The notes beneath the pieces are model-generated. The model was given only the letters and a program-made list of their open reading frames with translations. It had not been told where the DNA came from and did not search any database. From assembly GCF_004153195.1 (NCBI RefSeq), contig NZ_SEMC01000025.1, positions 1 through 35,559 of the forward strand: a stretch of 35,559 nucleotides of DNA, written 5' to 3'. This stretch comes from Sporolactobacillus sp. THM19-2 (GTDB lineage: Bacteria; Bacillota; Bacilli; Bacillales; Sporolactobacillaceae). The translations under genes and the position numbers were made by a program. Below, one piece after another: positions 13,658 to 30,817 of this stretch. Numbering within the stretch: position 1 is the first letter of the stretch; each line of letters opens with the position of its first letter.

Positions 13658-13846
13658 TAATTTCTTTCCCCTTTAACTTCCTCTCTGTTCTATGGAGTAT
13701 TAGGTGAAAGACCCCCGTTCCGTACTACGTTGAATGATATGTCTGACAACTATCTCTTAAATTTTCAAACCCTTTAAATTTCATTTATATTTTTTATTCT
13801 GCTTTACCCCTTTAGAGCCCCTCAATTGGTCCATTCGAACATTGCG

Positions 13847-14269: not shown

Positions 14270-14334
14270 CAAAAGGACCTCCCTAAACTGCCCTTAACAT
14301 GACATTAATTAGTTTCGATATTTTCTATTTAAAG

Positions 14335-14384
14335 ATAATAAGCAATAAATGTGTGGATTTTGTTTGGAAACTATGTAGAAATAA
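14335..14384 (-). promoter_or_regulatory. Promoter of the Rrf2 gene with 11-bp repeat box
   Basis: Plus-strand units TGTGGATTTTG (14352-14362), TTTGGAAACTA (14363-14373) and TGTAGAAATAA (14374-14384) are spaced exactly 11 bases. Read on the minus strand the proximal unit ends 12 bases before TATTAT (14335-14340). The same layout recurs at five other promoters of the island. Confidence 0.65.
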
Positions 14385-14406
14385 AATATGTTGTGAGGTG
14401 AAACAC

Positions 14407-14425
14407 CTGCCATTACGTATGGCAG
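14407..14425. promoter_or_regulatory. Perfect palindrome between merA and the Rrf2 gene
   Basis: CTGCCAT-TACGT-ATGGCAG, a 7-bp perfect inverted repeat with a 5-base centre, about 105 bases past the merA stop codon and upstream of the Rrf2 promoter box. It lacks a T-run, so it looks more like an operator or an RNA stem than a full terminator. Confidence 0.4.
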
Positions 14426-14531
14426 CAGTAAAACATCAGTAAAACAACATCATTCTGATTTGAAGTAAATTGTCATCGGAGTTATGTCTTTTTAAATTAG
14501 CCTTAATTTGTTTCGTTAATTATTAATATTG

Positions 14532-16166
14532 TTATCCTGCACAGCAAGACAGCGAAGATATATCTTTGTCAAATGTGAGTGCTGCTAATCTCAGGCCTTC
14601 CGCCATAGTCAAATAGGGTGCAAGACTTTTCTGAAGATCTTCTACAGTCAGCCCGGACTTAATAGCCAAGGTTGCAGCATAAATTACGTCTCCAGCATTT
14701 TCAGCAACAATATGGACGCCCAAGACCTTGAGTGTCTTTGCTTCTGCCACTAATTTAAAGACACCAGTCGTCTCTCGATTAACGATTGCTCTGGGCACGG
14801 TACTTAAAGGCAGAACAGACGTTTTTACCTTAAGGCCTTTTTTTATTGCCTGCTCTTCCGTTAATCCAACCGTGGCAGTTGATGGAGTTGTAAACATAAC
14901 GCTCGGTACAAAGTCTAAGTCAGTTTTTTGACCAAGTCCTCCGACGGCATTGTCTGCAGCAAGACCGCCTTGATAAGCAGCGACATAGACGAATTGCGGG
15001 CCGAGCGTGACATCCCCAGCTGCATAAATACGTGGATTGGTCGTTCTGGAAAATTCATCAATGAGGACTTCACCCCGGGTACCGACCTTAACGTTTGCTG
15101 AATACAGATTTAAGTTTGCTGTGTTCGGTTTGCGTCCTGTTGCGACAAGCAACTGCTCTGCTTCAATAACTTGTTCCTTACCCTCAGTCTTTATATGGAC
15201 TTTCTTTATCTGCCCGTCTTGTTCGATACGCTTGAATTTTATTCCGGTAATAAAATGAATACCTTGTTGTGTTAAAGCTCGTGTTATGGTTTCCGATATT
15301 TCCGGATCATATTTTTTTAATAATTGATTGCTCTGCTGCATCAATGTTACTTCCGTACCTAAATGATGAAAAAGCTGACCTAATTCAAAACCTACATAAC
15401 CGGAACCGATGACCGCAAGACGTTTCGGGATCTTTTTCAGTTCAAGTAAAGTTGTGCTGGTTAAGAAATCCACATGATTTAATCCGGGAATATCGGGTAT
15501 GAGCGGTGAAGCACCGGTGGCGATTAAAAAACGCTTTCCCGTCAGTCGTCTGCCATTCACTTCGATCGTTTTTTCATTGACAAACTTTGCCTCTCCTTTA
15601 ATAAGTTCAAAACCATAAGTTCCAATTAAATTTTCATACTTTTGGATCCGTAATGTTTCAACCAATTCATTTTTTTGCTCAACCAGTTGCGCTAAATCAG
15701 CTTCAGCTGCTGAAGTGTGCAATCCCTTGAATGGATAATTTTTTGCCTGGTTATTGATTTCCCCGGCTCTGAGCAAGGTCTTAGAAGGAACACAGCCGAT
15801 ATTAACACAGGTACCGCCAACTATACCTCGTTCAATCATTGCCACTCTGGCGCCATACTCTCTGGCTTTAATGGCTGAAGCAAAAGCCGCACCGCCAGAG
15901 CCAATAATAATGTAATCGTAGTCGTCTTCTTTATCAGAATCTCCTTCTGATTGGATCTGCATAAAATTTACAGGTTGATAGTGTGCTTCAACTATTGCCC
16001 GTTCCACAGTCTCCTTTTTAATACTAACCGGGAGCCCAAAAAGAGCTTCCCCACGTTGATAATTAACCTTAATGTTTCTTGCACCAATATGTTCCAGAGT
16101 ACTTGCCACACGGTCTTCACACCCGGCACAAGTCATCCCCTGAACAGTCATTCGATACGTTATCAT
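14532..16166 (-). CDS. merA: Mercuric reductase with N-terminal HMA domain
   Basis: 544-residue cytoplasmic flavoenzyme that reduces Hg(II) to volatile Hg(0) with NADPH. An HMA metal-binding domain covers about 1-70, with GMTCAGC at 10-16. A pyridine nucleotide-disulfide oxidoreductase core follows: FAD-binding [13 protein letters not shown] (86-98), redox-active C120 and C125 in [12 protein letters not shown] and NAD(P)-binding [12 protein letters not shown]. The C-terminus ends SLSCCAG, the vicinal cysteine pair typical of true MerA. I start at the ATG at 16166 ([10 protein letters not shown]) because GAGGAGG lies seven bases upstream. It follows merR by 20 bases in one operon. No merT, merP or merB is present. 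Confidence 0.95.
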
Positions 16167-16186
16167 ATGATTTCCTCCTCGTATTC

Positions 16187-16579
16187 TCACATTAAGGATT
16201 CAATAATGGGGCACTCATAAATCTCTTTATTCTCAGGACATCTTTTTTTCAGATCGACAAGCATCTTTTCAAGTTTGTTTAATTCCTCGATTTTATGCTG
16301 TATCTCACCAATCTTGTTAACGGTAAAATCATATATATCTCTGCACTTCACTTCATTGCGGTCAACAACGCCTAACAACTTGTCAATTTCATTCAATGTA
16401 AATCCTAATCTCTTCAACTTTTTAATAAAATTCACTCGGTCCACTGTTTGAGCCTTATAGATACGGTATCCTTTCGCTGTACGAGAGGGAATTGGAATTA
16501 GCCCCAGCCGTTCATAGTACCGGATCGTTTCTTTGTTGACGTAAGTTCGGCTGGCCAGCTGTCCGATTCGTAACCCCAT
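16187..16579 (-). CDS. merR: Mercury-responsive regulator MerR
   Basis: 130 residues from the ATG at 16579 (GAGGTG seven bases upstream; a GTG three codons earlier is less likely). N-terminal MerR winged helix-turn-helix ([20 protein letters not shown]), a dimerisation helix, and three cysteines at positions 79, 114 and 123 in the contexts VKCRDIY, KKRCPEN and YECPII. These are the Hg(II) ligands of MerR and have the same spacing as in Bacillus MerR. It should bind the dyad in its own promoter, repress without mercury and activate merRA when Hg(II) binds. First gene of the merR-merA operon. Confidence 0.95.
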
Positions 16580-16597
16580 TTGTTTCACCTCATATAC

Positions 16598-16629
16598 AAT
16601 ATAAACCCTGTACCAAAGTACAGGGTCAA
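16598..16629 (-). promoter_or_regulatory. MerR-type promoter and operator of merRA
   Basis: A 22-bp dyad ACCCTGTAC-CAAA-GTACAGGGT at 16605-16626 lies between TTGACC (-35, 16624-16629) and TATATT (-10, 16598-16603). The spacer is 19-20 bases, the overlong spacing that MerR-family activators correct by twisting DNA. Confidence 0.9.
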
Positions 16630-16695
16630 CCTTTAATCCTAAACATAACTCCGTATCATGACGGTAATATCATTAATTGGTCTTTTAGAATGGAC

Positions 16696-17859
16696 TCAAG
16701 TGAAAATAGAGCTTTTCAGATTCAAAAAATGGCCGTACGATTTTACTATATTGAATTTCTTGTACAGTTTGCTATAATCTCTTTTTCCTTCTAATACATC
16801 AAAAACTAAGCTTAATAACTTAGGAAAACGAGAAACAATCTTTTGCATCAATTTCGGATTTTTGTAAAATTCCCGGCCAAACTGATCTAATGTACTGAGT
16901 TCGGGCATGATTGTCAGATCAACATCTCTTTGATAGGTTGAGAATGCTTCATTATATCCATCCCTGATCGTCTTTATTAAATGGTCAGCAAGTAATTCAG
17001 CACTCCACAAAGCATAGTAGATGCCCTCTCCGGCAAATGAATCGACCAGTCCGGCTGCGTCTCCGATTAATGCTGTTCGTTGCGCCATGATTGTCTGCCG
17101 GGTACCGCCGGCAGACAAAAAAGATCCTTTCGCACTCAGCAGATCTCCACTCACTTCCTGATGGTTAAGAAATGAATGCAAATATTTCGACATCAATTTC
17201 TGACCTAACGAGTAAGAACCGATACCTGCCGATAGAATTCCATTTTTCGGAAATATCCATATATATCCGTCAGGTACACTGGTATAATCAATGATAACTT
17301 TGTTTTTATATTTTGTGTTTGTTGTCTGGTTACATCTGAATTCATATTCCAATGCCAGAGCTTTCCTGCGTTCCAACATTAACCCGACCTGTTTCGCAAC
17401 GATACTGTTTACGCCATCGGCTCCAACCAAATACCGTCCTGAATATTTCTCATCCCTTGTGAAGACCTCGACCCCTCCACCATACTCGACCACTTTTTTA
17501 ACGAAGGAATCCTCTTTCAGTTCTGCACCACAGTCAACGGCATGTTTCGCCAGTAGTTGATCCAATTCGTCTCTCATTACCATATAAATAAACGGCGTTT
17601 TATGTTTAAACTCCTGAATGTCATGATTTCCTTCCACCGTGACAAATGAAGTGATCTGATCTCGAATAATCGGTGTGATATCAATCGGCATTTTCAGGAA
17701 GGCTCTCTTGGTAACCCCGCCTCCACATACTTTATAACGCGGAAAACTTTGCTTCTCTAAAATTAAAACATGAAGCCCTGCTTCAGCAAGCTTTGCTGCC
17801 AGTGAACTGCCACCGGGACCTGCTCCGACAATAATCACATCATAAACCTTTGAATCCAT
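16696..17859 (-). CDS. Geranylgeranyl-reductase-family FAD-dependent oxidoreductase
   Basis: 387 residues. N-terminal dinucleotide-binding motif DVIIVGAGPGGSSLAAKLAEAG (split here: VGAGPGGSS at about 11-19), then FPRYKVCGGGVTKRA, the family's Cys-Gly-Gly pattern, and the second FAD motif LIGDAAGLVDSFAGEGI near residue 265-285. Members reduce double bonds of isoprenoid chains or act on related hydrophobic substrates such as quinone or lipid precursors. Here it is the last gene of an operon with lgt and a membrane protein, in a copper/mercury island, so a role in modifying membrane isoprenoids or quinones under metal stress is inference. GGAGGA lies before the ATG. Confidence 0.8.
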   Translation of the reverse strand: MDSKVYDVIIVGAGPGGSSLAAKLAEAGLHVLILEKQSFPRYKVCGGGVTKRAFLKMPIDITPIIRDQITSFVTVEGNHDIQEFKHKTPFIYMVMRDELDQLLAKHAVDCGAELKEDSFVKKVVEYGGGVEVFTRDEKYSGRYLVGADGVNSIVAKQVGLMLERRKALALEYEFRCNQTTNTKYKNKVIIDYTSVPDGYIWIFPKNGILSAGIGSYSLGQKLMSKYLHSFLNHQEVSGDLLSAKGSFLSAGGTRQTIMAQRTALIGDAAGLVDSFAGEGIYYALWSAELLADHLIKTIRDGYNEAFSTYQRDVDLTIMPELSTLDQFGREFYKNPKLMQKIVSRFPKLLSLVFDVLEGKRDYSKLYKKFNIVKSYGHFLNLKSSIFT

Positions 17860-17911
17860 TTTAATTCCTCCAGCTTACATCACTTTGAATATAATTAATA
17901 TAATTGCACGA

Positions 17912-18364
17912 CTACCTGTTCGTAACGCCATGATTGTGATCATGAGTGTTTATACTGTCATTGTTGGAATCCTGATTTTGTGTATCTTGTGTATCCGGAG
18001 AAGGCTGAACGAATGTGGCGATCGTTTGGGGGATCGCAGAAAATACAATCACAATTGAAAGAATTGATGAGATAGCATAAACCCACGCGATGGATCGTTC
18101 ATGGCTCCATTTACGTTTTGCAACGAAAATAAATCGGACTGAAATAAGCAGAGAAACAATTAACAGAATCATCTTCAAAAGAGGTGACATATTAAATAAA
18201 AACGCTCCAATCGATGTCAGGCCCACTGAAATTAACAGTACATGCAGCCAATGGTGGGAGGTAGCAAGAATGGCGAACAGAACAGATCCTATTGACTTCA
18301 GCCAAGTTTTCCTCTGACCTGATTTCTTTGCATCCGAATCAGATTCAAGCGCTCGTTTTCTCAT
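17912..18364 (-). CDS. Membrane protein with His-rich tail, unknown function
   Basis: 150 residues with about four hydrophobic segments (roughly 24-45, 50-60, 63-82 and 90-115). An HHW motif lies at the start of the first membrane segments (ATSHHWLHVLLISVG), and the soluble tail is rich in D, N and H (SINTHDHNHGVTNR). The His pairs suggest metal binding. It lies between lgt and the reductase gene with gaps of 38 and 52 bases, so it is probably co-transcribed. I do not recognise a named family. Because the mer operon lacks a MerT/MerC-type importer, this is one candidate for mercury or copper handling, but it has no CC or CxxC motif as MerT/MerC have. Confidence 0.6.
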   Translation of the reverse strand: MRKRALESDSDAKKSGQRKTWLKSIGSVLFAILATSHHWLHVLLISVGLTSIGAFLFNMSPLLKMILLIVSLLISVRFIFVAKRKWSHERSIAWVYAISSILSIVIVFSAIPQTIATFVQPSPDTQDTQNQDSNNDSINTHDHNHGVTNR

Positions 18365-18402
18365 AACTTTTCTCCTCTCTACTCTCTATATTCCCTGTTT
18401 CC

Positions 18403-19194
18403 TTAAATTTTTTCCCCTTGATAATTTTTCGTTTGCCTGTAGCGTCGGATCATAAAACCAATAGCGATTATAATTGTAAGCAGGGCAGTCACTTGAGCTG
18501 TTTTCAAATTAAATACGGTTCTGAGGCTGTCACCTCTCCAGAACTCCAAAGAAAATCTCAAAATTGAGTATAATTCCAGCATCAGAAGGAACAAGAATCC
18601 TTGAAATGGTTTTCTGTGTTTAATCAAAAACAGGATACCCAAAATCACAAGATCGCCAATCGCTTCGAATAAGGGGGTCGGCAATACCGGCGTGCTGCCA
18701 AAGGCGTGGTAGACAAACGTTCCCGGAGGATATGTAACAGCCAGAAACGAATCACTTGGAATACCGTAGGCATCACCTGCGAAAAAATCGGATAAGCGGC
18801 CGATAGACATTCCGAGTATTAACGCCGGAGTGACGATATCCGCTACTTGCCAAACCGGCAACTTATGTTTTTTAGCAAGCCAGATGCCAATTAAAATTCC
18901 ACCAAGAATCCCCCCCTGCAAGGCCAGTCCACCCATCCAAACCATAAGTATTTCTCCTGGGTGAGCCGCATAATAAGGCCATTTAAAAAGTACATACCAT
19001 AATCTCGCCCCTATGACTCCACCCAGTACACAGTAAAGAGCAAATTCAACCATATAATCGGCATTAATATTCTGCTTTCTGGCCTCACGATTCACAATCC
19101 ATAAACCAAGCAGTGTTGAAAGTGCAACTGATACTCCCAAAGTATTGATCGCTATTGGGCCAACCCTAAATAAAACAGGTCCTGGAAACCACAC
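18403..19194 (-). CDS. lgt: Divergent prolipoprotein diacylglyceryl transferase
   Basis: 263-residue integral membrane enzyme that moves diacylglyceryl from phosphatidylglycerol to the lipobox cysteine of prolipoproteins. Seven membrane segments, GARLWYVLFKWPYY, MGGLALQGGILGG, the Lgt signature region GRLSDFFAGDAYGIPSD, and SLEFWRGDS near the C-terminus. In housekeeping Lgt the signature is GRxGNFxNxExxG; here GN is SD and NxE is AGD, so this is probably a second, specialised copy. The island also encodes a lipoprotein multicopper oxidase, a plausible client. Starts at GTG with AAGGA nine bases upstream. Heads the lgt-orf-ggr operon, whose promoter carries the 11-bp repeat box. Confidence 0.85.
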   Translation of the reverse strand: MWFPGPVLFRVGPIAINTLGVSVALSTLLGLWIVNREARKQNINADYMVEFALYCVLGGVIGARLWYVLFKWPYYAAHPGEILMVWMGGLALQGGILGGILIGIWLAKKHKLPVWQVADIVTPALILGMSIGRLSDFFAGDAYGIPSDSFLAVTYPPGTFVYHAFGSTPVLPTPLFEAIGDLVILGILFLIKHRKPFQGFLFLLMLELYSILRFSLEFWRGDSLRTVFNLKTAQVTALLTIIIAIGFMIRRYRQTKNYQGEKI

Positions 19195-19235
19195 GTATCG
19201 TCATCCTTTCCATGAATCTCATTTCTCTAATTTGA

Positions 19236-19285
19236 ATCTTATAGTAAACATTTGTGGAAATGATGTAGAAACGGTAAAGGAAATA
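19236..19285 (-). promoter_or_regulatory. Promoter of the lgt operon with 11-bp repeat box
   Basis: Plus-strand units TGTGGAAATGA (19253-19263) and TGTAGAAACGG (19264-19274), with a weak third (TAAAGGAAATA). On the minus strand the proximal TTCCAC ends 12 bases before TAAGAT (19236-19241), or 10 before TATAAG. Same layout as the copB-like promoter. Confidence 0.65.
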
Positions 19286-19399
19286 ATACCCCGTTCATGT
19301 TTTCTCTATCGGCAGATGTCATTTAGTAGCGTTAATGATTCGACTCTATCTATGAGTAAATTAGAAAAGATGACGATTAATAAACCATAGTCAACTTTT

Positions 19400-20053
19400 T
19401 TACGTTTGTTCTTTTTTTGTAGAATTAATCAAATGAATCCGTGGAATAAATCTGGGCACTCTCTTCATATAATCGATATACTCTTTGCCAAACTCCTGTA
19501 TCATGTTTTGTTCTTCTTTTTTGGCCAGTCTTCTGTACATAATTAATAATGTGGGTGCCATGATCAGCGTAATCAATGTGGGCCACTGTATCAGGAAGCC
19601 AAGGATACTGAGCCCAAAACCAGTGTATTGAGGGTGACGGACAAATCGATAAATTCCATCCTGGACTAATTTTCCATGGCCAGAATGTATTTTTCTCCAA
19701 CCAATCCAAATTATAATTAACCCACCAAAAATAAACACATTGCTTAATGGATGCAGAATTTCAAACAATACCGGAGATCCTCCCGTTAGCGCCACCCAGA
19801 GATGGCCATTTATATGATTGAAGGGATCAAGGACCGGATAATTTTTACCTAAAATCGATGTCAGAATATAAATGGTCAAAGGAAAACCGAACATCTCGCT
19901 GAACAACGCGACTATAAATCCTGTAAATGCCCCTAAGGTTCGCCAGTCCCGCTTCGTTGTCGGCTTAAAAACAGACAGTGCAAATAGTCCAAAGAAAATG
20001 ATGTTAAACAGAACAGCGCCCCATAGACCATATGCGTATTCATTCTCCGGCAA
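19400..20053 (-). CDS. Isoprenylcysteine carboxyl methyltransferase-family membrane protein
   Basis: 217 residues, about five membrane segments. The C-terminal half has the ICMT/PEMT-type catalytic pattern RHPQYTGFGLSILGF (about 140-154), followed by KKEEQNMIQEFGKEYIDYMKRVPRFIP, where the conserved EE and Y-x-x-Y-x-x-R-V-P residues bind S-adenosylmethionine and the membrane. Bacterial members methylate diverse small or lipid substrates; the substrate here is unknown. Start is TTG with GGGGAG eight bases upstream. It is the third gene of the copB-like operon, 35 bases after the cupredoxin gene. NnrU-like proteins are an alternative but the RHPQYTG motif favours ICMT. Confidence 0.75.
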   Translation of the reverse strand: MPENEYAYGLWGAVLFNIIFFGLFALSVFKPTTKRDWRTLGAFTGFIVALFSEMFGFPLTIYILTSILGKNYPVLDPFNHINGHLWVALTGGSPVLFEILHPLSNVFIFGGLIIIWIGWRKIHSGHGKLVQDGIYRFVRHPQYTGFGLSILGFLIQWPTLITLIMAPTLLIMYRRLAKKEEQNMIQEFGKEYIDYMKRVPRFIPRIHLINSTKKEQT

Positions 20054-20088
20054 GACTAAATCTCCCCTCTCAGCTGTTTTTATTTGTT

Positions 20089-20460
20089 TCAGTTTTTAAC
20101 AATAATCTTTCCCTTGAACATGCCCATTTGGCAATTAAAATCATAGGCACCTGTTTTCATAGGAGGAAGATCGACGATCACTTTCTCGCCGGCAGGAAGC
20201 GTTGCGCTTTTCTCAAAATCGGGAAAGACCACCATGCCGTCGCATGCGCCGGTCTCAACTCGAGTAAATTCAAATCGAACTGGCTTCCCGCTCTGTACAA
20301 AAATTCGGGAAGGATTGTAACCATTCTTGACAAGAATCTTTGCTTCCTGGTATCCGGATGCATTGATTTCCGCCTGACTCCCACCTTTTTTCGGTCCCCA
20401 GAAAAACCAGGCTATGACACCCACTAATAACAATCCTCCGATCGTAACAATCCAATCCAA
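20089..20460 (-). CDS. Membrane-anchored cupredoxin-domain protein
   Basis: About 123 residues. One N-terminal membrane anchor (WIVTIGGLLLVGVIAWFFWG), a short linker, then a cupredoxin-like domain outside the membrane: YNPSRIFVQSGKPVRFEF, GACDGMVVFPDF and YDFNCQMGMFKGKI. The two Cys and the Met of CDGMV / NCQMGM are likely copper ligands. Related cupredoxins next to Cu+ ATPases are thought to receive or buffer exported copper. I prefer the TTG at 20460, with GAGGG eight bases upstream; the GTG at 20469 overlaps its own ribosome-binding site. It lies about 18 bases after the ATPase stop codon in the same operon. Confidence 0.8.
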   Translation of the reverse strand: MDWIVTIGGLLLVGVIAWFFWGPKKGGSQAEINASGYQEAKILVKNGYNPSRIFVQSGKPVRFEFTRVETGACDGMVVFPDFEKSATLPAGEKVIVDLPPMKTGAYDFNCQMGMFKGKIIVKN

Positions 20461-20478
20461 TCCAATCACCCTCTTTTT

Positions 20479-22554
20479 TTAACTGAATTTTAATTTTAAT
20501 CCCTTTAAACGATTAGCATTAAGGACAACGGTTAAAGAACTGAAAGCCATCGCGGCCGCAGCGAAAAGCGGCGATAATAAGATTCCGGTGAAGGGATAGA
20601 GGACGCCTAAAGCAACGGGAATGCCGATTGCGTTGTATATAAAGGCACCAAATAAGCCTTCGTAAATGTTTCTCATCGTTGCGCGGCTCACTTTGATTGC
20701 ACTGACGACCCCTTTCAGACTGCCCGAAATTAGAGTAATATCGCTGGCTTCGATTGCGACATCTGTACCGGTTCCGATTGCAATACCGACATCCGCCTGA
20801 GTAAGCGCAGGTGCATCATTAATGCCATCACCAACCATGGCCACCTTTTTGTCCTCTTTCTGGAGATTTCGGACATTCTCAGCTTTATCCTGCGGAAGCA
20901 CCTCTGCCAGTACTCGACCAATACCGACCTGTCTGGCAATCGCATGAGCCGTCCGCTCATTGTCCCCGGTAATCATTACGATTTCAAGGCCCATCGCTTT
21001 CAATTCACGAATAACGGATATCGAATCACTCTTTACCGTGTCTGCAACTGCGACAATTCCCCCAGGTTCTCCATCAATTGCCAGAAACATCGGCGTTTTT
21101 CCTTGATCGGCAATAGATGAGGCATAACGTTGAAAACCGTCCAGCGGAATATTTTTTTCTTTCATCAATTTTAAGTTGCCAAAATAGATTTTCTTCCTGT
21201 CCACAATTCCTTCGACTCCATGTCCCGGGATCGCATTGAAGTCTGTACTTTGAACAACTGTCAGCCCTTCTTCTCTTGCCTTTTCCACTATAGCGGATGC
21301 CAGTGGATGCTCTGAACCTTGTTCAATCGATGCGGTAATCAAAAGAACTTCTTCTTTAGAGAAACTTCCTAATGGAATGATATCTGTCAGGGAAGGCCTA
21401 CCCTCCGTAATGGTACCGGTTTTATCCATAACAATGGTTTCCAGTTTTTGGGCAATCTGAAGTGCTTCTCCTGAACGAATTAAAATCCCATTTTCTGCTC
21501 CCTTCCCAATGCCTGTCGTGAGTGACATTGGAGTGGCCATCCCCAAGGCACATGGGCAGGCAATAATCAATGTCGTCACGGCAACGACCAGGGCGTAAAC
21601 CCATCCGGGCTGCGGCCCAAAATTAAACCAGACGAGATAACCAAGTATGGCTGCGATAATCACCCCTGGTGTAAAGATAGACGAGACCTTATCGACTACT
21701 TTTTGAACCGGTATCCGGGAGCCCTGAGCTTGCTTAACCATCTCGACGATGTTGGCCAGAGCCGAATCTTTTTGTTCCTTGGTCACGAGAAGTGTGAAGC
21801 TTCCCGTTTTATTCAGTGTTCCTCCGAACACTTCATCGCCCTTTTTCTTTTCAACCGGGATGGATTCCCCGGTCAGCATGGATTCATCAATCGCCGACCC
21901 TCCGGAAAGAATGATCCCATCAATAGCAACCTTTTCACCCGGCCGGACGATGATCTGATCGCCGATTTTTATTTCTTCAAGCGGTATCTTGACTTCCTTC
22001 CCGTTCCGAACAACATTCGCTGTCTGCGGCTGCAGAGCGATCAACTTATTGATTGCCTCAGACGAACGCCCTCGCGCTTTGACTTCTAACGCCGATCCAA
22101 GCACAACCAGTGCCGTAACAACCGTAGTCACATCGTAATATACATCGGCCATTTCCGGGCGGGGGAAAATTTGCGGCCAAAACAGGGCAATCATTGAATA
22201 GAGCCACGCTGCCGATACACCGGTTGCGATCAACGTATTCATATTTGCGGAGCGTTGTTTTATGCTCTCCCATGCTCCGATAAAAAATTGTCCGCCACTT
22301 CGAATGACAACATACAGAGCTAACAAACCCATGACCAACCGCGTCCACCAGAGTTGTTCACTGCCCATTGGCAACAGGTCTCCCAGCCCAAATAAATTTG
22401 GATAAGAGACTAAGATAACAGGAACGGATACGATGGCTGCCCGCCACCATTTTCTCATCAAAGAACGATATTCCTGTTCTTCACCGGAACTTTTCTGGTC
22501 GCTCCTTTGTTCTGAATGTGTATGACCTTCCATCATCGTGTCTTCTTCTCTCAC
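20479..22554 (-). CDS. Cu+-exporting P1B-type ATPase lacking an HMA domain
   Basis: 691 residues, eight membrane helices expected. The N-terminus is short and has His/Asp/Glu residues (EGHTHSEQ) in place of an HMA domain. Motifs in order: TGES actuator ([12 protein letters not shown]), CPC in the metal-transport helix ([13 protein letters not shown]), phosphorylation site [11 protein letters not shown], the HP motif SEHPLAS and [10 protein letters not shown]. The later helices have YNAIGIP and [12 protein letters not shown], the residues of Cu+-type (P1B-1) pumps. By layout it resembles CopB, but CopB usually has CPH; here it is CPC. The start is GTG at 22554 with AAGGAGG eight bases upstream. 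First gene of an operon with a cupredoxin and an ICMT-like protein; promoter with three 11-bp repeats. Confidence 0.9.
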
Positions 22555-22698
22555 TTTTCACCCCTCCTTTGAAATTTTAAAAAAACATGGTTAATTTGTT
22601 CTTCTTTAAATGGATGATCCAAACCATCGCTCATGTTTGTTAAATGGTTGTCGACTGCCTGCCATGTACCTTATTGAATAGGTTCCCCTCACTTATAG

Positions 22699-22748
22699 AT
22701 GGTATAGGAAAATCATGTAGAATTTGAGTAGAAAGCATGTAGAATCTG
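22699..22748 (-). promoter_or_regulatory. Promoter of the copB-like operon with three 11-bp repeats
   Basis: Plus-strand units TGTAGAATTTG (22716-22726), AGTAGAAAGCA (22727-22737) and TGTAGAATCTG (22738-22748) follow each other at exactly 11 bases. On the minus strand the proximal TTCTAC ends 12 bases before TACCAT (22699-22704), or 10 before TATACC. The clearest copy of the island's box. Confidence 0.75.
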
Positions 22749-22910
22749 TTTACAACTACTAAATAATAAGGTGCTGATCGATTGATGCCCATTCGTCTCT
22801 TTTAATATGATGAATGTCATGAATTTTATAATCTCGAGTTACATTTGTTGTTGCTCCTTAAGTTTTGTCATCTTTTCATCCGCCTTTAATATCTACAATG
22901 ACTATTAAAC

Positions 22911-22944
22911 AGGGGCGAAAAAACCGAATCGATTTTTCGCCCCT
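22911..22944 (-). terminator. Terminator of the small-protein cassette
   Basis: AGGGGCGAAAAA and TTTTTCGCCCCT form a perfect 12-bp stem with an 11-base loop, about 35 bases past the last small gene. The T-run is part of the stem; it can work in both directions. Confidence 0.8.
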
Positions 22945-22980
22945 GCCGTTGAAATTATCTTTTTCATTTCTAATTTACAT

Positions 22981-23256
22981 TTAATGATGGTGCTCTTTAT
23001 CTTTTTTCATTATTCCCGGCATCATGAACAGATGCATCAATGGGCAAATGAGGACTGCAGCGAGAATAAGCAGATTTGCGGATCCTGCAACGCCGCCTGT
23101 TAAGAATAAACCGACAACCACGGCGATGGGAATGATGAAGCAGATCGCCATCATCAAGCTATGGTTGTGATTATGCGTTCCATGATGATCCAGATTGTTA
23201 TTTCCCTGGTTGTGATTTTCATGGCTCTGATGATCATGATTTCCGCAACAATTCAT
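22981..23256 (-). CDS. DUF2933-like small His-rich membrane protein
   Basis: 91 residues. Starts MNCCGNHDHQSHENH, a Cys-Cys and His-rich head (residues 1-32), then two membrane helices (about 34-52 and 57-80) with the pattern ICPLMHLFMMPGIMKK and a final HHH. Small proteins with CPLMHLFMM are frequent beside copper genes; a role in binding or trafficking copper at the membrane is likely but not proven. AGGAGG lies seven bases upstream of the ATG. Last gene of a cassette of three. Its head is similar to the whole 49-residue neighbour upstream. Confidence 0.75.
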   Translation of the reverse strand: MNCCGNHDHQSHENHNQGNNNLDHHGTHNHNHSLMMAICFIIPIAVVVGLFLTGGVAGSANLLILAAVLICPLMHLFMMPGIMKKDKEHHH

Positions 23257-23293
23257 CGAAATCCCTCCTGAATTCTATTCCTTTATTACTGTT

Positions 23294-23443
23294 TTACGAT
23301 TGGCGCTTCCCCTGATGATGATCATTGTGTCCTTTTAACAGATCCGATTTCTTCTGCGCCTCATGAGTAGGCGTGTGCTGCTGAGTGTGCTGATGGTGCT
23401 CAGATTGATGGTCTTGATGATTGTGATCTCCGCAACATGACAT
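23294..23443 (-). CDS. 49-residue His-rich soluble protein (too short for standard calling)
   Basis: A small frame, ATG at 23443 with AGGAG nine bases upstream, stop TAA at 23294. The product begins MSCCGDHNHQDHQSEHHQ and continues with repeated H, Q and T, ending HHQGKRQS. It has about 12 histidines and a Cys pair and no membrane segment. It matches the first 25 or so residues of the downstream DUF2933-like protein (MNCCGNHDHQSHENHNQ), so it is probably a partial duplicate kept as a soluble metal-binding peptide. It lies 16 bases after the upstream small gene and 37 before the next, in one transcript. Confidence 0.7.
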   Translation of the reverse strand: MSCCGDHNHQDHQSEHHQHTQQHTPTHEAQKKSDLLKGHNDHHQGKRQS

Positions 23444-23459
23444 AAAACATGTCTCCTGG

Positions 23460-23651
23460 TTATTCATTTTTGTTTTTGAGTTGCTGCAGTTGCTCGCGTA
23501 AAAGGTGATTCTGTTCCTTCAGTTCGTTTAATTCAGACGAATTTTTCTGGTGTTTCGAATGATCTGCGTCTGAATGATCCCCCTTCATCATAAACATCAT
23601 GGGAAGCATCATCAGGGGGCAGGCAAGTAAGAGTAGCCATGACCAATCCAT
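23460..23651 (-). CDS. Small membrane protein with CPLMM motif and coiled-coil tail
   Basis: 63 residues. One membrane helix (3-22) with ACPLMMLPMMFMMKG, then a His/Asp patch (GDHSDADHSKH) and a short coiled coil (LNELKEQNHLLREQLQQL). The Met-rich helix is like that of DUF2933 proteins beside copper genes. First gene of the small-protein cassette; its promoter carries two 11-bp repeats and a consensus TATAAT. GAGGAGG lies before the ATG. Confidence 0.75.
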   Translation of the reverse strand: MDWSWLLLLACPLMMLPMMFMMKGDHSDADHSKHQKNSSELNELKEQNHLLREQLQQLKNKNE

Positions 23652-23683
23652 CGATTTCTTCCTCCTCTCGTTCTTTATACTGA

Positions 23684-23722
23684 ATTATAGGCAGGAATTG
23701 TGTGGAATCTGTGTGGAAAACA
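23684..23722 (-). promoter_or_regulatory. Promoter of the small-protein cassette with 11-bp repeat box
   Basis: Plus-strand units TGTGGAATCTG (23701-23711) and TGTGGAAAACA (23712-23722). On the minus strand the proximal TTCCAC ends 12 bases before a perfect TATAAT (23684-23689). This is the cleanest -10 in the set and fixes the spacing. Confidence 0.7.
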
Positions 23723-23754
23723 AGTCTTTATACGAAAAAGAAAATTTGGAGGGA

Positions 23755-23955
23755 CTACCGTTTATTTCGGTAATGAAACCATAAATAGAGGCCGCCGATG
23801 ACGACCACCGGACAGGCGACCCACATGCAGGCTCTGACAAAAGTCCTTCCGAAAGCGAGTAAACTTTCGTGGCCAAAGGCATTAGCGGAGAAGAACAGGC
23901 AGGTCAGCCCCATAATAATTAAAAAAAGGGAAAGAAACCAATCGATTTTTTTCAT
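23755..23955 (-). CDS. Small two-helix membrane protein, unknown
   Basis: 66 residues from the ATG at 23955 (MKKIDWFLSL). Two membrane helices (about 6-25 and 40-60) with the Cys residues FVRACMWVACPVVV. It follows the histidine kinase gene by 23 bases and is probably the third gene of the two-component operon. The frame opens further upstream to a GTG that overlaps the kinase stop codon, but the ATG has GAAAGGA upstream. Family not recognised; the CxxxxxCP pattern in the second helix may bind metal. Confidence 0.6.
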   Translation of the reverse strand: MKKIDWFLSLFLIIMGLTCLFFSANAFGHESLLAFGRTFVRACMWVACPVVVIGGLYLWFHYRNKR

Positions 23956-23978
23956 GGCTGAACGTCGTCCTTTCTCCA

Positions 23979-25358
23979 CTACTTTTTATGAGGAAAACGC
24001 AGAATAAAAGTTGTCCCTGTTCCTTTTTGACTCTTCACATCGACTGTGCCGCCCTGCATCTCAACATACTTCTTGACAATGGACAGGCCGAGACCAGTCC
24101 CGCCATATTTCCGTGCTCTTGACTTCTCCACACGATAAAAGCGGTCAAAAAGATACGGCAGCTCATGCTCAGGGATCCCGATTCCGGTGTCCGATACAGA
24201 TAAAACGGTCGCTTCCTTCTCATCAGTCAGCTGAACAGAAACATGTCCCCTTTCCGTATAACGGATCGCATTTTCAAGCAGGTTCAGCAGCACCTGTTCC
24301 ATGCGCTGACGATCCCCATAAACAGGCGGCACATGATCTTGCAGCTCCAATTGCAGACTTAATTGCTTTTTTTCTGCCTTGAGTCGGACCTTCTGCATAG
24401 CTGTTTTCGCCATTTCTTTGAGATCGAGCGGTTCCAGGGAGAGCGTGATCCGTCCCTCTTCCATCTTTGCAAGGTCAAACAGATCATGGATTAAATGTTC
24501 CAGCCGGACGGATTCCTGATAAATGATCGAAAGATACTGCTTTTTCTCCCTTTCAGAATCCACCAGGCCATCGTTCAGCACTTTGGCATAGCCTTGCAGA
24601 TAAGTCACCGGCGTGCGAAGTTCATGGGAAATATTTGAGAAAAAAGCGCGCCGCGAGTCCCGATATCTTTGCAGACTCGCCGCCAGATCATTAATGGAAC
24701 GTCCGAGCTTGCCGATTTCGTCCCGGCCCTTCACCTGAAGGCGGGTATCCCAGTTTCCCTTTGCCATTTTATCAGTCATTTGCTGCATTTTCAGCAGCGG
24801 GCGGGAAAATAATTTGCTCATGATCACAATCAGACCAAGGGCAAGGAGAAAGGCCCCTAATCCGGAAAGCAGCAGCAGATTTCGCAGTTGCTGCAGAGAC
24901 GCTTCCATGTTTTTCGTTGAAGCCATCACATAGATGGCCGAATGTGTTGCCCCTCCCTTTTGAACGGGCCTGCCAACAATATAAAACTTTCCACGGGCAT
25001 CGCTTCTCAAAAAAGACTCAGCGTGGCCCTCCAGCAGGCGGCGGGTATCCTGCGCTTTGATTAAAGACAGATTTTCTTCTTCACCAGGAAATGTCACGAT
25101 TTTTCCCCGGTCGTTTACCCATAAAACTTCTACATCCGAAAACTCGGCAAAGGTACGAATCATCGATTGAGTGGTGGCTTCACCGGACTCAGCCATCGTA
25201 GTAAAATGAGCGGCGATTTGCTGCGTATCTTCTTTCATCTGCGTATCGTAAAAATTCATAAATAATCGATCAACGGCAAAACCTGAAAATACCAGAATCA
25301 CAATCATCAACGCCATCACTGCCGCACCCAGTTCAAGAGCGATCCGATTGATTTTCAT
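23979..25358 (-). CDS. Membrane sensor histidine kinase of the copper island
   Basis: 459 residues. Membrane helix about 8-28, an extracytoplasmic sensor domain about 30-160, a second helix 161-181, HAMP (182-235), HisKA with H245 in FFSNISHELRTPVTYL, and HATPase_c with NLLENAIRYT, VSDTGIGIPEHEL and YGGTGLGLSIVKK. All catalytic boxes are intact. The sensor domain has few Met and no Cys, so a copper site is not obvious; the context is the only reason to think it senses copper. It overlaps the response regulator stop codon by ATGA, which implies translational coupling. Confidence 0.9.
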   Translation of the reverse strand: MKINRIALELGAAVMALMIVILVFSGFAVDRLFMNFYDTQMKEDTQQIAAHFTTMAESGEATTQSMIRTFAEFSDVEVLWVNDRGKIVTFPGEEENLSLIKAQDTRRLLEGHAESFLRSDARGKFYIVGRPVQKGGATHSAIYVMASTKNMEASLQQLRNLLLLSGLGAFLLALGLIVIMSKLFSRPLLKMQQMTDKMAKGNWDTRLQVKGRDEIGKLGRSINDLAASLQRYRDSRRAFFSNISHELRTPVTYLQGYAKVLNDGLVDSEREKKQYLSIIYQESVRLEHLIHDLFDLAKMEEGRITLSLEPLDLKEMAKTAMQKVRLKAEKKQLSLQLELQDHVPPVYGDRQRMEQVLLNLLENAIRYTERGHVSVQLTDEKEATVLSVSDTGIGIPEHELPYLFDRFYRVEKSRARKYGGTGLGLSIVKKYVEMQGGTVDVKSQKGTGTTFILRFPHKK

Positions 25359-26062
25359 GATTGTCCGGCCTCTGTCTCAAATTTATAGCCGACGCCCCAG
25401 CTTGTCTGGATCGGATGATAGGCCAGGCCTGATCTTTTTAACTTCTCTCTGATATTTTTGACGTGTATATCGACTACTCGGGCATCTCCTTCAAAATCAT
25501 AGCCCCATATTTTTTCGATTAACTGCTCGCGGGACAGGACGCGCCCTTTATTTTCCGCCAGTGTCATCAACAGGTCGAATTCTTTAGGCGTCAAATCAAG
25601 CGGCTGGTCATGAACAAAAATCCGCCGTCCGTCCCTGTCAAGCGTCAGCCCGGGAAAGTGGAGCAGATGATCTTCCGATTGTTGGGGTGAAACGAAAGAA
25701 GCACGGCGAATAAGCGCATGGACACGGGCGATCAATTCTTCCGGATCAAACGGTTTGGTCAGATAATCATCCGCCCCGAGTTCAAGGCCCTGAACCTTAT
25801 CTTTTGTCTCATCCAGTGCAGTCAGCATCAAAATGGGGACCGTCCGGATTTCCCGAATCGATCGACAGACTTCCCAGCCATCCATATGGGGCATCATGAT
25901 GTCAAGGATCACCAGGTCAAAAGATTGATTTTTCATTTTCACAAGGGCTTCACAACCATCAGCGGCTTCAACAGGATCAAATCCAGCTTTTGATAAATAG
26001 ATGCGCAGCAGATTGCGCATCTTCCATTCGTCATCAATGACCAGGATTTTCAGCTTTTTCAT
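25355..26062 (-). CDS. OmpR-family response regulator of the copper island
   Basis: 235 residues from the ATG at 26062 (MKKLKILVIDDE), with AAGG eight bases upstream. Receiver domain with the acidic pair near residues 10-11, phosphorylated D54 (LVILDIMMPHMDG), T in LMLTALDE and K in YLTKPF. The C-terminal winged helix (LTPKEFDLLMTLAENKGRVLSREQL ... VVDIHVKNIREKL) binds DNA as a dimer on direct repeats. I infer that it recognises the 11-bp repeat boxes found at six promoters in this island. Its own promoter shows no such box; read-through from copZ or a weak TATGAT near 26083 may drive it. Confidence 0.9.
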   Translation of the reverse strand: MKKLKILVIDDEWKMRNLLRIYLSKAGFDPVEAADGCEALVKMKNQSFDLVILDIMMPHMDGWEVCRSIREIRTVPILMLTALDETKDKVQGLELGADDYLTKPFDPEELIARVHALIRRASFVSPQQSEDHLLHFPGLTLDRDGRRIFVHDQPLDLTPKEFDLLMTLAENKGRVLSREQLIEKIWGYDFEGDARVVDIHVKNIREKLKRSGLAYHPIQTSWGVGYKFETEAGQS

Positions 26063-26104
26063 GATCATCACCTTTTCTTATCATATAACCCATGTTTTTT
26101 CTCG

Positions 26105-26143
26105 AAAAACAGGTTCATCTCATGCCTGTCATAAACCTGGTTT
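26105..26143. promoter_or_regulatory. Inverted repeat upstream of the response regulator gene
   Basis: AAACAGGTT and AACCTGGTTT, complementary except for one bulged base, with 18-19 bases between. On the minus strand a TTTTTC run follows the stem, so it may be a second terminator after copZ or an operator for the regulator gene. Confidence 0.35.
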
Positions 26144-26233
26144 CCGTTTTCTTCTAACGCCTCATCCCAGCTGAGTCACGTTCCTCACTATCAATCGCAA
26201 CCGGTTCCCGCTCAATTTCTCTCTTAAAGTGTG

Positions 26234-26268
26234 AAAAGGTGCCTTCACCATGCGGCGAGGCACCTTTC
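26234..26268 (-). terminator. Terminator of the copA-copZ operon
   Basis: AAAGGTGCCT pairs with AGGCACCTTT around a 13-base loop, starting a few bases after the copZ stop codon; TTTT follows on the minus strand. Confidence 0.85.
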
Positions 26269-26272
26269 CTGA

Positions 26273-26488
26273 TTAATTATGACCGACTACATCGTAGCCC
26301 TGCTTTTCGACAGCTTCCTTCATGTCGTTAAACCGGACTTTCGTGTCGTCATACTCAACGGCCGCCTGACCTGAAGACAAATCTACTTCAGCAGTTGAAA
26401 CGCCATTCAGGTCTTTCAGTGTCTTCGTCACCAGGCGTTTGCAGTGGTCACCCATCATACCTTTGACATTCAATGTTGTTTTTGCCAT
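26273..26488 (-). CDS. copZ: CopZ-like HMA copper chaperone with incomplete metal motif
   Basis: 71 residues from the ATG at 26488 (MAKTTLNVKG), with AAGGAG ten bases upstream. It has the whole HMA fold of CopZ, with GYDVVGHN at the end. The metal-binding loop, normally GMxCxxC, reads GMMGDHC: the first cysteine is glycine (codon GGT where TGT would be Cys). A single Cys (and the adjacent His) could still bind Cu+ as a dimer or hand it on, or the protein may have become a regulator. It follows copA by 35 bases in one operon. Confidence 0.8.
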   Translation of the reverse strand: MAKTTLNVKGMMGDHCKRLVTKTLKDLNGVSTAEVDLSSGQAAVEYDDTKVRFNDMKEAVEKQGYDVVGHN

Positions 26489-26523
26489 TTGACTCAAACT
26501 CCTTTACTGATTATTTTCCGGCA

Positions 26524-28923
26524 TCAGATTTTCACACGTTTCAGGCGCAAACTGTTTGCAACAACAGAAACAGAACTAAAGGCCATGGCTGCACCGGCAA
26601 CCCATGGTGCAAGGAGTCCGAATGCAGCTACAGGAATGCCGACCGAATTATAGAACAGTGCCCAGAACAGGTTCTGACGAATGTTTCGCATCGTTTTCCG
26701 GCTCAAATCAATGGCTTTTGGAATATGAAGCAGATCGCCGCCGACCAAGGTGATGTCGGCTGCCTCAATGGCAACATCCGTGCCGGTACCGATTGCCATG
26801 CCGATATCCGCCGTAGCAAGCGCCGGTGCATCATTGATGCCGTCGCCGACCATGGCCACTTTCAACCCTTTGTTCTGAAGAACCTTTACTTTCGCTGCTT
26901 TTTCTTCAGGAAGAACTTCGGAAAACACATGGTCAATACCCGCCTGCCTGGCAATAGCCTGCGCCGTTCGCTCGTTGTCACCCGTAATCATATAGACGGC
27001 AAGGCCATGGGCTTTCAATTTTTCAATGGCCTGCTTTGAAGACGATTTAATGGCGTCGGCAACCGCGACGATCCCCTGAAGCCTGCCGTCACTTGCGACA
27101 AACATCGCCGTCTTCCCTTCTGATTCAAGCTGCTTCATTTGCTGCTCGCTATCCGCATAGGCAATGCCTTCCTCTTTCATCAACCGCCGCGTGCCGATCG
27201 CGACCTCTTTTCCGGAGACAACGGCTTTAATACCGTAACCAGCCACTGCTTTAAACTTGTCGGGGGATGAAAGCGCCGGGTGACTTTGTTTACCGAAGGC
27301 GACAATCGCCTGTGCCAGGGGATGTTCACTTGCTGATTCAGCTGAAGCAGCAAGCGACACCAGTTCATTTTGATCAGAACCGTTCAACGGGATAACATCT
27401 GTCACTTCCGGTTTTCCTTTTGTAATCGTCCCGGTCTTATCAAGCAGTATCGCCTGCAGATTGTGCGTCGTTTCGAGATACTCACCCCCCTTAAAGAGAA
27501 TGCCATGCTCAGCTCCTTTGCCGGTTCCGACCATGATAGACGTCGGCGTCGCCAGACCCAGGGCGCATGGGCAGGCGATCACCAGCACACTGATTGCCGC
27601 AACGAGTGCCGGAGCGAACTGACCTGGTGTGACAAACAGAATCCAGACAAGGAAAGCCAGCAGTGCGATGCCGATGACGATCGGCACAAAGATACCCGAA
27701 ATGCTGTCGGCGAGCCGCTGGATCGGTGCCTTGGATCCCTGCGCCTCCTCAACGATTTTGACAATCGAGGCCAGTGCGGTGTCCTTACCTACTTTTTCGG
27801 CCCGCATCGTCAGTGTCCCATTGGCATTCACCGTGGCACCAATGACTTTGTCATCTCTTCCCTTTTCAACGGGAATCGATTCGCCGGTAATCATCGACTC
27901 GTCAACCGATGACTCGCCGTCAGTGACGATACCGTCTACCGGTACTTTCTCTCCGGGTTTGATACGAAGCACGTCCCCGACAGCTACCTGGTCAATCGGC
28001 ACTTTTCGTTCCTGACCGTTCTCAATGACCGTAGCCTCTTTCGCCGAAAGTCCCATCAGTTCCGTGATCGCCGCAGTGGTTCTCCGCTTTGCCCGGCTCT
28101 CAAAATATTTGCCTAAGAGGACAAGCGTGATCAGAATGGCACTCGTCTCGAAATAAAGATCCGGATTGGTAAGCCCGCCGAACTGGAAGCGGAATGTTTC
28201 AAATGCACTGTAAAACCAGGCGGCACTTGTCCCAAGCGCAACCAGTACATCCATATTGGCGCTTTTATTAATCAAAGCCTTTGTCCCGCTGATGTAGAAC
28301 TGCCCGCCGATATAGAACTGGACAATTCCGGCAACAACAAGCTGAAACCACGGATTCATCAACAGATCCGGCATGGGAAGCCCTGTCTGGAACGGCAGAT
28401 GGGCCAGCATGGTGTAGAGCAGCGGAAGTGAGAGAACAGCAGACAGGATCAGTTTCTGCAACTTTTTTCTCAGCTCCCGCTCTTTGGTGTCCTCTGTCTT
28501 TTCTTTTTTGGGAACAGCCTGGTAACCAAGTTTTTTCACGCGGTTATAGATCGCATCAGGATCAACAATCCCGGGTTGAAAAATTACCGTCCCGGACTCT
28601 GTCGCCAGATTGACCTGAGCGGATACAACGCCGGCCATCCGATTCAGTCCCTTTTCGATACGCGCGGCACAGGAGGCACAGGTCATTCCCATAATATCGG
28701 CATCGAGCCTCTTCGTTCGTACGCCATAACCTAACTTTTCTATTTTTTGGACAATATCCGCCGGCTTTGTCTTTTCTTCATCAAGAGTTACTTTTGCCTT
28801 TTCCAGTGCAAGATTAACATTCGCCTGAACACCGTCCATCCTGTTAAGCGATTTTTCAATTCTTGCAGAACAGGAGGCGCAGGTCATTCCTGTAATCCCG
28901 ATTTGTATCGCCTTTGAACTCAT
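26524..28923 (-). CDS. copA: Cu+-exporting P1B-1 ATPase with two HMA domains
   Basis: 799 residues from the ATG at 28923 ([12 protein letters not shown]), with AGGGAG nine bases upstream. Two HMA domains carry GMTCASC (Cys 15/18 and 82/85). The pump core has [15 protein letters not shown] ([13 protein letters not shown]), DKTGT ([12 protein letters not shown]), SEHPLAQ and [10 protein letters not shown], with YNSVGIP and [11 protein letters not shown] as Cu+-selective residues. The frame is open for 41 codons further upstream, but that extension overlaps the CsoR-type promoter, so it is not likely translated in full. It is the main cytoplasmic copper exporter and the second Cu pump in the island. 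Expression is likely under a CsoR-type repressor and, from an upstream promoter, the two-component system. Confidence 0.95.
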
Positions 28924-29017
28924 CCCTCTCATCTCCCTGTATGATGACTTCAGAAAAAATATCATAAACATCCGGAATCGTTTTGTATCCATTAAAGAAT
29001 TACCGTACTTCATGTTC

Positions 29018-29046
29018 ATGATACCCCCATAGGGTATATATGTCAA
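29018..29046 (-). promoter_or_regulatory. CsoR-type operator inside the copA promoter
   Basis: On the minus strand TTGACA (29041-29046) and TATCAT (29018-29023) are 17 bases apart. The spacer and -10 edge hold ATACCC-TATGG-GGGTAT (29021-29037), which is nearly the same as known CsoR operators of Bacillus copZA. A repressor bound here would block RNA polymerase. No csoR gene is in the window. The leader from the expected start (about 29011) to the ATG is about 90 bases. Confidence 0.85.
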
Positions 29047-29099
29047 AGTATCCGATACATGCCTGTCTCTATTTGCACAACTTTCTTAGATTCTCCCTT

Positions 29100-29138
29100 A
29101 TTCTAATAAACAAATGTGTAGATTTTGTCAGGATAGAA
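29100..29138 (-). promoter_or_regulatory. Second, upstream copA promoter with a weak 11-bp box
   Basis: Plus-strand TGTAGATTTTG (29117-29127), then a weak TCAGGATAGAA (29128-29138). On the minus strand ATCTAC ends 12 bases before TAGAAT (29100-29105). The second repeat matches only in part, so this is the least certain of the six boxes. Confidence 0.45.
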
Positions 29139-29170
29139 AAAAATCCTGTCTTTTTTCTTCCGCCATTTTT

Positions 29171-29207
29171 CAATCTTCACAGTTTCCCCACATTTATACG
29201 CTACACT
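29171..29207 (+). promoter_or_regulatory. Promoter of the multicopper oxidase gene with 11-bp repeat box
   Basis: Plus-strand units CAATCTTCACA (29171-29181) and GTTTCCCCACA (29182-29192), the box in the reverse sense as needed for a plus-strand gene. CCCCAC ends 10 bases before TACACT (29202-29207). The ATG at 29237 lies about 24 bases past the likely start. Confidence 0.6.
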
Positions 29208-29236
29208 GAGGGAAACCAGAGAAAGGACGTCGATTC

Positions 29237-30799: not shown

Positions 30800-30817
30800 A
30801 AGAAGGGTATGATAGAC

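Follow-up and report, generated by a model that had tools for sequence, protein, structure and literature searches.

A tandem-repeat element at six promoters of a Sporolactobacillus copper island and its probable control by the neighbouring two-component system

Sporolactobacillus sp. THM19-2 carries an island of copper genes on contig C27 of its 3.0-Mb draft genome (NZ_SEMC01000025.1; 35,559 nucleotides, analyzed at full length and referred to as the window), and six promoters of this island share an element of tandem 7-base direct repeats, which is the subject of this work. The island extends from a gene for a PcsB-type/M23 peptidase (12500) to one for a SHOCT-domain protein (31063), and the 19 island proteins scanned all lie within 12500-31063. 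They include a single response regulator (25355-26071, minus strand), proposed here as the reader of the element, and a single sensor histidine kinase (23979-25358, minus strand). The regulator is a member of the OmpR/PhoB family. Its best NCBIfam models are RpaB, MtrA, VanR and PhoB, and since none of the 25 models shown passes the curated cut-off it is assigned to no named subfamily; its structure matches are RegX3, MtrA and PrrA. In the putative extracellular part of the kinase the residues H51, M55 and M66 are identical in 17 of 17 distinct sequences, and a conserved Cys column is absent from this part of the same sequences; the three residues could bind Cu(I) or, alternatively, be structural.

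The kinase gene is followed on the same strand by an open reading frame (ORF) of 74 amino acids (23755-23979) with no Pfam match at 0.001, which is kept beside the kinase in relatives. Further along the minus strand lie a cassette for DUF2933 proteins of 63 amino acids (23460-23651) and of 91 amino acids, the latter His-rich (22981-23256), a CopB-like P-type ATPase of the heavy-metal/copper subfamily (20479-22554), a cupredoxin-domain protein (20089-20469), a membrane methyltransferase of the PEMT/ICMT type (19400-20053) and a second prolipoprotein diacylglyceryl transferase, Lgt2 (18403-19194), with 33% identity to the other Lgt of the genome. Behind lgt2 an ORF for a membrane protein of 150 amino acids (17912-18364), with a His-rich C-terminus (HDHNHG) and a sub-threshold DUF2232 match only, is also kept in relatives. 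A CymR-like Rrf2 protein (13847-14272), 75% identical to a second genomic copy, and the peptidase (12500-13657) complete this side. Beyond the regulator the minus strand encodes a CopZ-like HMA chaperone (26273-26497) and the copper P-type ATPase CopA (26524-29046), and the plus strand a multicopper oxidase (29237-30799) followed by the small SHOCT-domain protein (30809-31063). The island also carries merA/merR.

Read toward the gene, all six promoters follow the consensus WTCYACA-n4-WTCYACA-n11-TANNNT, in which two 7-base units are placed 11 bases apart and the -10 box starts 11 bases past the second unit (12 past its TTCYAC). The units are direct repeats with a period of 11 bp in 6/6 promoters, that of copA having a degenerate distal unit; a third in-phase unit is present before copB and rrf2, and the remaining four promoters have two. 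The scores given below are those of a 35-column matrix trained on 18 sites from other genomes, with the own and same-species genomes left out and without any copA or copB site in the training set. On the minus strand, the box of the transcript with rrf2, or in relatives the PcsB/M23 peptidase, is located at 14335-14369 (TTCCAAA-n4-ATCCACA-n11-TATTAT; score 33.4; third unit TTCTACA at 14374-14380), that of lgt2 at 19236-19270 (TTCTACA-n4-TTCCACA-n11-TAAGAT; 27.2), that of the copB-cupredoxin-methyltransferase transcript at 22699-22733 (TTCTACT-n4-TTCTACA-n11-TACCAT; 23.3; third unit TTCTACA at 22738-22744), that of the small-protein (DUF2933) cassette, the best conserved target between species, at 23684-23718 (TTCCACA-n4-TTCCACA-n11-TATAAT; 48.7) and that of copA at 29100-29134 (ATCCTGA-n4-ATCTACA-n11-TAGAAT; 26.8). 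The multicopper oxidase box lies on the plus strand at 29173-29207 (ATCTTCA-cagt-TTCCCCA-catttatacgc-TACACT; 31.5). With a distal unit that fits the consensus at 4/7 positions, copA has the weakest site, and it is the least certain member of the regulon. The preliminary description of this DNA had listed six 11-bp-phased sites, all of which were recovered where it placed them or within a few bases, and had already called that of copA weak. It had also set the proximal unit 12 bases from the -10 box in five promoters and 10 in the oxidase; the five distances hold, and in a corrected register the oxidase has 12 as well (6/6). This register is supported by the oxidase boxes of the genomes G304 and G227 and by that of Paenibacillus lautus (TTCTTCA, then TTCAACA), which shows such unit forms at that position. 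In none of the six promoters does the -35 match TTGACA at more than 3/6 positions (spacings 16-18), and the repeats cover the place of the -35.

The six sites are the six best matrix places on both strands of the 35.6-kb window (23.3-48.7), the seventh scoring 13.9. They fill the top six ranks each time one gene class is left out of the training, the best other place then reaching 14.5-22.1; the likeness therefore spans non-homologous promoters. With its own class left out the rrf2 box ranks third and that of lgt2 sixth. Mean pairwise identity among the six sites is 60% in the box vs 28-29% in the flanks. Shuffling the window by dinucleotides 200 times gave no place of at least 23 and a single one of at least 20, and the background of 79 loci around other response regulators (L010-L088, 1.45 Mb) holds one place of at least 23. 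When the literal 18-mer of the two units was counted with up to three mismatches, the window gave 22 places (mean 10.3, maximum 18 in 100 shuffles). The 3.0-Mb genome has only two exact copies, which precede lgt and the small-protein cassette within the window. Without the -10 box the 18-mer is frequent across the genome (89 places with at most two mismatches, 61 for the reversed-pattern control), and around five further one-mismatch two-unit places outside the window (C2, C17, C33, C66, C67) the matrix score does not exceed 4.

The specific pattern is that of units plus -10 box, which at up to one mismatch comprises 4/6 sites, those of copA and the oxidase being further off. The own genome has five such places, four in the island and one in a Fur/PerR-like coding sequence. 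The latter place (G000:C14:54411-54445) and a match in the genome G307 were rejected as candidates, both being within Fur/PerR-like coding sequences (the proteins are named from their sequence); the off-island matches at C14 and at L163 lie inside such genes of two species, at conserved C-x-x-C codons. When only the units were queried with up to one mismatch, TANNNT stood at offset 12 in 26/46 distinct island sites and in 10/16 plasmid sites, every other offset having at most three. At two mismatches the islands still peak at offset 12 (41/239) and the background shows no peak (19/586).

The box and the regulator occur together. Among 26 genomes of the family Sporolactobacillaceae, the own one included, a regulator orthologue (called at E <= 1e-75) is found in 15, one of which is the one-contig same-species genome G310; judged by the regulator protein, the nearest named relative is Sporolactobacillus sp. 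THM7-4 (78%). At up to one mismatch to the units plus -10 pattern, the 15 regulator-positive genomes hold 53 places (reversed-pattern control 11), seven of them away from the island regions read, and the 11 regulator-negative genomes, one of them only 75% complete, hold 6 (control 6). All 27 exact places fall in regulator-positive genomes, one of them being that within the coding sequence of G307. The genome G202, whose regulator has 60% identity, gave 0 places in this count, yet a matrix score of 33.0 before its DUF2933 gene. copA is present in 10/10 regulator-negative genomes searched (12 loci), with no box of at least 13 within 1.5 kb (best 12.1 and 11.4). When 13 small-protein promoters were aligned on the box, which favours the box columns, the units had 1.70 and the -10 box 1.61 bits per column, vs 0.49 in the upstream flank and 1.07 in the downstream flank, which includes the ribosome site.

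In relatives, boxes precede lgt2, copB, the oxidase gene, copA (weakly), a SHOCT gene and the PcsB/M23 peptidase gene. The regulator's own gene is preceded by a strong box in G124 (42.2) and a moderate one in G305 (17.3); a positive loop is likely there. The regulator gene of G308 is preceded by no more than two units and an aberrant -10 box, a variant similar to the one found before the PspA-like gene of G250 and of near-identical islands (TTTTACA-n4-TTCTACA, where the -10-like TGTAAT follows at 10 and not at 12; score 12.3). Box-like sites before PspA-like genes, at L128:8902 (G250 C27) and at L042:5460 of Alicyclobacillus, suggest that membrane-stress proteins may be part of the response. 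A 52-kb contig of G312 (C11; L142-L144) carries two regulator-kinase-DUF2933 cores, 78% and 67% identical to the window, each with a box.

The target at the rrf2 end differs between species. An rrf2 gene was found in 2/18 regions searched, the own one and that of G310, most of the other 16 stopping short of the rrf2 island end; four of these 16 do encode the homologous peptidase (G250, G306, G311, G304), and none of the four has rrf2. In G250, G306 and G311 the box directly precedes the peptidase gene, and in G304 the peptidase comes after the DUF2933 cassette. Window and G250 DNA match at the box and at the start of the peptidase gene; in the window rrf2 lies between these two matching parts. 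Since, in the regions read, rrf2 stands behind the box only in the own species and relatives have the peptidase there, the cell-wall hydrolase is more likely the older target, and the Rrf2 gene would be a passenger or a recent recruit. The other rrf2 gene and the other Lgt gene of the genome have no box beside them (best 3.0 and -2.8, respectively).

Outside the family, boxes were found in Bacillaceae and Paenibacillus, on 5/5 plasmid stretches that hold copper genes (Alkalihalophilus pseudofirmus OF4, Paenibacillus lautus, Metabacillus, Peribacillus, Cytobacillus), picked from the best plasmid matches of the regulator and encoding regulators of 50-60% identity. By the record names they precede, among others, genes for DUF2933, oxidase, cytochrome-oxidase-assembly, CcmE, C39 peptidase and peroxiredoxin proteins.

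A dyad at 16604-16627, CCCTGTAC-TTTG-GTACAGGG, lies between promoter-like hexamers before merR/merA and resembles a MerR operator. The segment 14532-17859 is a mosaic: merA and merR are 98-100% identical to those of G250, G306 and G311 but only 91% and 89% identical to those of the same-species G310, whereas the adjoining lgt2 is 98% identical to G310 and 80% to those other species. This points to a recent exchange of the mer part.

We consider it probable, with considerable though not full confidence, that the repeats serve as operator and promoter element of a single regulon, governed by the two-component system encoded at 23979-26071. The membrane kinase would sense excess copper outside the membrane and phosphorylate the regulator, which would then bind head-to-tail over the absent -35, one subunit per 11-bp unit, and recruit sigma-A polymerase to the -10 box at its fixed distance, in a PhoB-like manner. 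Outputs of such a system would be export (copA-copZ, copB), oxidation (oxidase, cupredoxin), the DUF2933 proteins and envelope enzymes (Lgt2, the methyltransferase, the PcsB/M23 peptidase), so that genes for copper export, copper oxidation and envelope modification are probably switched on together; the regulator might be fed back positively, by a box before its own gene in some species and, in this island, perhaps by read-through from copA. The element is taken as an activator site because a poor -35 with repeats over its place is the PhoB arrangement. In this scheme the regulator as binder, activation instead of repression and copper as the signal are what we infer; what the DNA itself shows is the box with its geometry and conservation, how nearly it is confined to the island and that it occurs with the regulator gene.

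Much of this had been anticipated by the preliminary description. The fixed geometry, from which it argued against chance, is borne out by the matrix ranking and by shuffles that never reach 23. The OmpR-family regulator that it regarded as the only one locally is the one response regulator of the 19 proteins, and the distribution of boxes among the family genomes favours it as the probable reader. As to the single response it drew up, copper export, the oxidase and the second Lgt are indeed boxed, but the CymR paralogue is boxed, among the regions read, only in the own species, the peptidase taking its place in relatives. Two of the three outcomes that it had named as speaking against it, a motif equally frequent at unrelated genes and a motif lacking in related islands, did not occur: at up to one mismatch four of the five places of the own genome are in the island, and the box is kept in related islands.

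Several observations weigh against control by the island's own two-component system. The counts of 53 and 6 places are counts of genomes, not of independent events, given shared ancestry and several near-identical islands. The background of 1.45 Mb has three places of at least 20 and, at one mismatch, a small peak of its own at offset 12 (7/51); among eight such background places four lie in the Alicyclobacillus locus L042 and one before a regulator gene (L030), and by these positions some may be genuine boxes. The copA boxes of other species score 13.2-16.6, vs 13.9 for the best window place that is not a site. No box of at least 10 precedes the own regulator gene, and read-through could be limited by a hairpin that is seen in the DNA separating copZ from the regulator gene and that the terminator scan did not list. 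Order-level genomes with regulators of 51-57% identity have places of at least 17 nearby in only 3/10 (G053, G260, G266). A looser unit plus TANNNT pattern gives sites in 6/10 of them, and the box thus appears to belong to a part of the regulator lineage in which the unit degenerates, and not to every homologue of about 50%.

Among the other explanations the one that survives best, though we hold it to be unlikely, is that the same regulon answers a signal other than copper as such, either silver or general envelope stress, the copper genes being part of its output. Such a signal would fit islands that have regulator and box but, as far as they were fetched, neither copA nor copB (G305, G124, G151b) or only the oxidase (G304), and the presence of Lgt2, PcsB/M23 peptidase and PspA-like genes among those boxed. 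The recurrent neighbours, however, are copper ATPases, CopZ, oxidase and cupredoxin, and the one His and two Met kept in 17/17 kinases would suit Cu(I), unless they are structural.

That the box is genuine and read by another DNA-binding protein, be it a second OmpR-family regulator or a conserved regulator encoded off the island, seems to us quite improbable. The genome did give 25 first-look candidates for relatives of the response regulator, one of which might be the reader, for sequence alone names no binder; but boxes are at control level in the 11 family genomes without this particular regulator, precede the gene of the regulator itself in G124 and, with a lower score, in G305, and accompany its relatives on plasmids of other families. 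Still less credit can be given to a repressor operator over the promoter, relieved by copper in the manner of CopY or CsoR. A protein bound over the place of the -35 could block polymerase too, yet a -35-like hexamer matching at most 3/6 positions would serve poorly once the repressor had left. The operator of CopY is TACANNTGTA, which has 0 exact matches in the window; no CopY/TcrY repressor gene (E <= 0.001), and no CsoR, was found among the 19 island proteins scanned. A chance likeness of A+T-rich promoters, or a set of DnaA boxes, can be practically dismissed: the DnaA box core, TTATNCACA, resembles TTTTCCACA and TTCCACA-type words are common (89 two-unit places vs 61), but the sole TTWTNCACA word of the window, inside the small-protein box and hence in one of six sites, is below the shuffle mean of 3.6, and the shuffles, the ranking by a matrix from other genomes and its repeats without single gene classes rule chance out, with conservation and the fixed -10 distance as further arguments.

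With control by the island's two-component system as the preferred reading, the box can be set beside known copper and phosphate systems. The CusR box of E. coli is an inverted repeat, whereas all six promoters here have direct repeats. We found no description of the present box in the literature searched by title and abstract start, among the best-ranked matches.

Islands of Enterococcus with tcrYAZB, cueO, cusRS and lgt have been described (PMC4511184), and in Listeria and Enterococcus the copper-induced lit2 is reported to be co-transcribed with lgt2 (PMC8275575). They resemble the present island in uniting copper ATPases, an oxidase, a two-component system and a second Lgt, and differ in that the repressor TcrY is part of tcr; in E. 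hirae, the single tcr stretch examined shows no annotated two-component pair and has no box above 10. For E. faecalis, control of cueO by cusRS, on the island with lgt, was only proposed, with no site named (PMC4511184). Gram-positive copper islands thereby gain a searchable control element, gene membership becomes predictable from a 35-base pattern, and the poorly understood DUF2933 proteins, second Lgt, membrane methyltransferase and peptidoglycan hydrolase are tied by the box to one response. A Lactobacillus-type plasmid module, from Latilactobacillus sakei J64 (L224), has cupredoxins, a copper ATPase, a two-component system, lgt, DUF2933 and PspC in a row and a box-like site 61 bases before lgt (21.8), with a regulator only about 46% identical. 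This site overlaps an inverted repeat, made up before the same lgt of two opposed box-like pairs (L224:14060-14125) and continued by a T-run, which may be a terminator, an operator or both; the related stretch of L. hilgardii contains no box (best 8.7).

The PhoB tandem dimer has been modelled over the -35 region, touching sigma (PMC3348028). The present system shares with it an OmpR/PhoB-family regulator and tandem direct repeats over a poor -35 at a fixed distance from the -10 box; unit sequence and inducing signal differ, and orthology is not claimed. Among the closest is CopR of Corynebacterium glutamicum, which switches on gene clusters that encode a copper ATPase and an oxidase and binds TGAAGATTTnnTGAAGATTT, where a change of three base pairs abolishes binding (PMC3140484). 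There, as here, the two-component genes lie beside those for a copper ATPase and a multicopper oxidase, and TGAAGATTTnnTGAAGATTT is likewise a direct repeat with an 11-bp period. Its other strand reads ATCTTCA-n4-ATCTTCA, with 0 mismatches to WTCYWCA-n4-WTCYWCA, and the oxidase box of the window has this ATCTTCA as its distal unit. The preferred unit here is nevertheless TTCYACA, and the CopR site scores 6.7 on an 18-column matrix, a value reached by 16/71082 window places. The C. glutamicum genome has a single CopR site, lying 59-78 bp ahead of the copR start codon and 266-285 bp upstream of the point where cg3286 transcription begins (PMC3140484); in the window the box occurs at six promoters, always 11 bases ahead of the -10. 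It is conceivable, at somewhat less than an even chance in our judgement, that the box marks a Bacillales-wide extracytoplasmic copper response on chromosomes and plasmids, run by one OmpR-type lineage whose unit drifts from TTCYACA to WTCTTCA, reaching that of CopR, and with metal export and envelope remodelling (Lgt2, the PEMT/ICMT methyltransferase, a geranylgeranyl-reductase-like enzyme, the PcsB/M23 peptidase, PspA-like proteins) as its standing output. C. glutamicum CopR already provides a case of a copper response regulator that reads an 11-bp direct repeat; what is new here is the regulon and its box.

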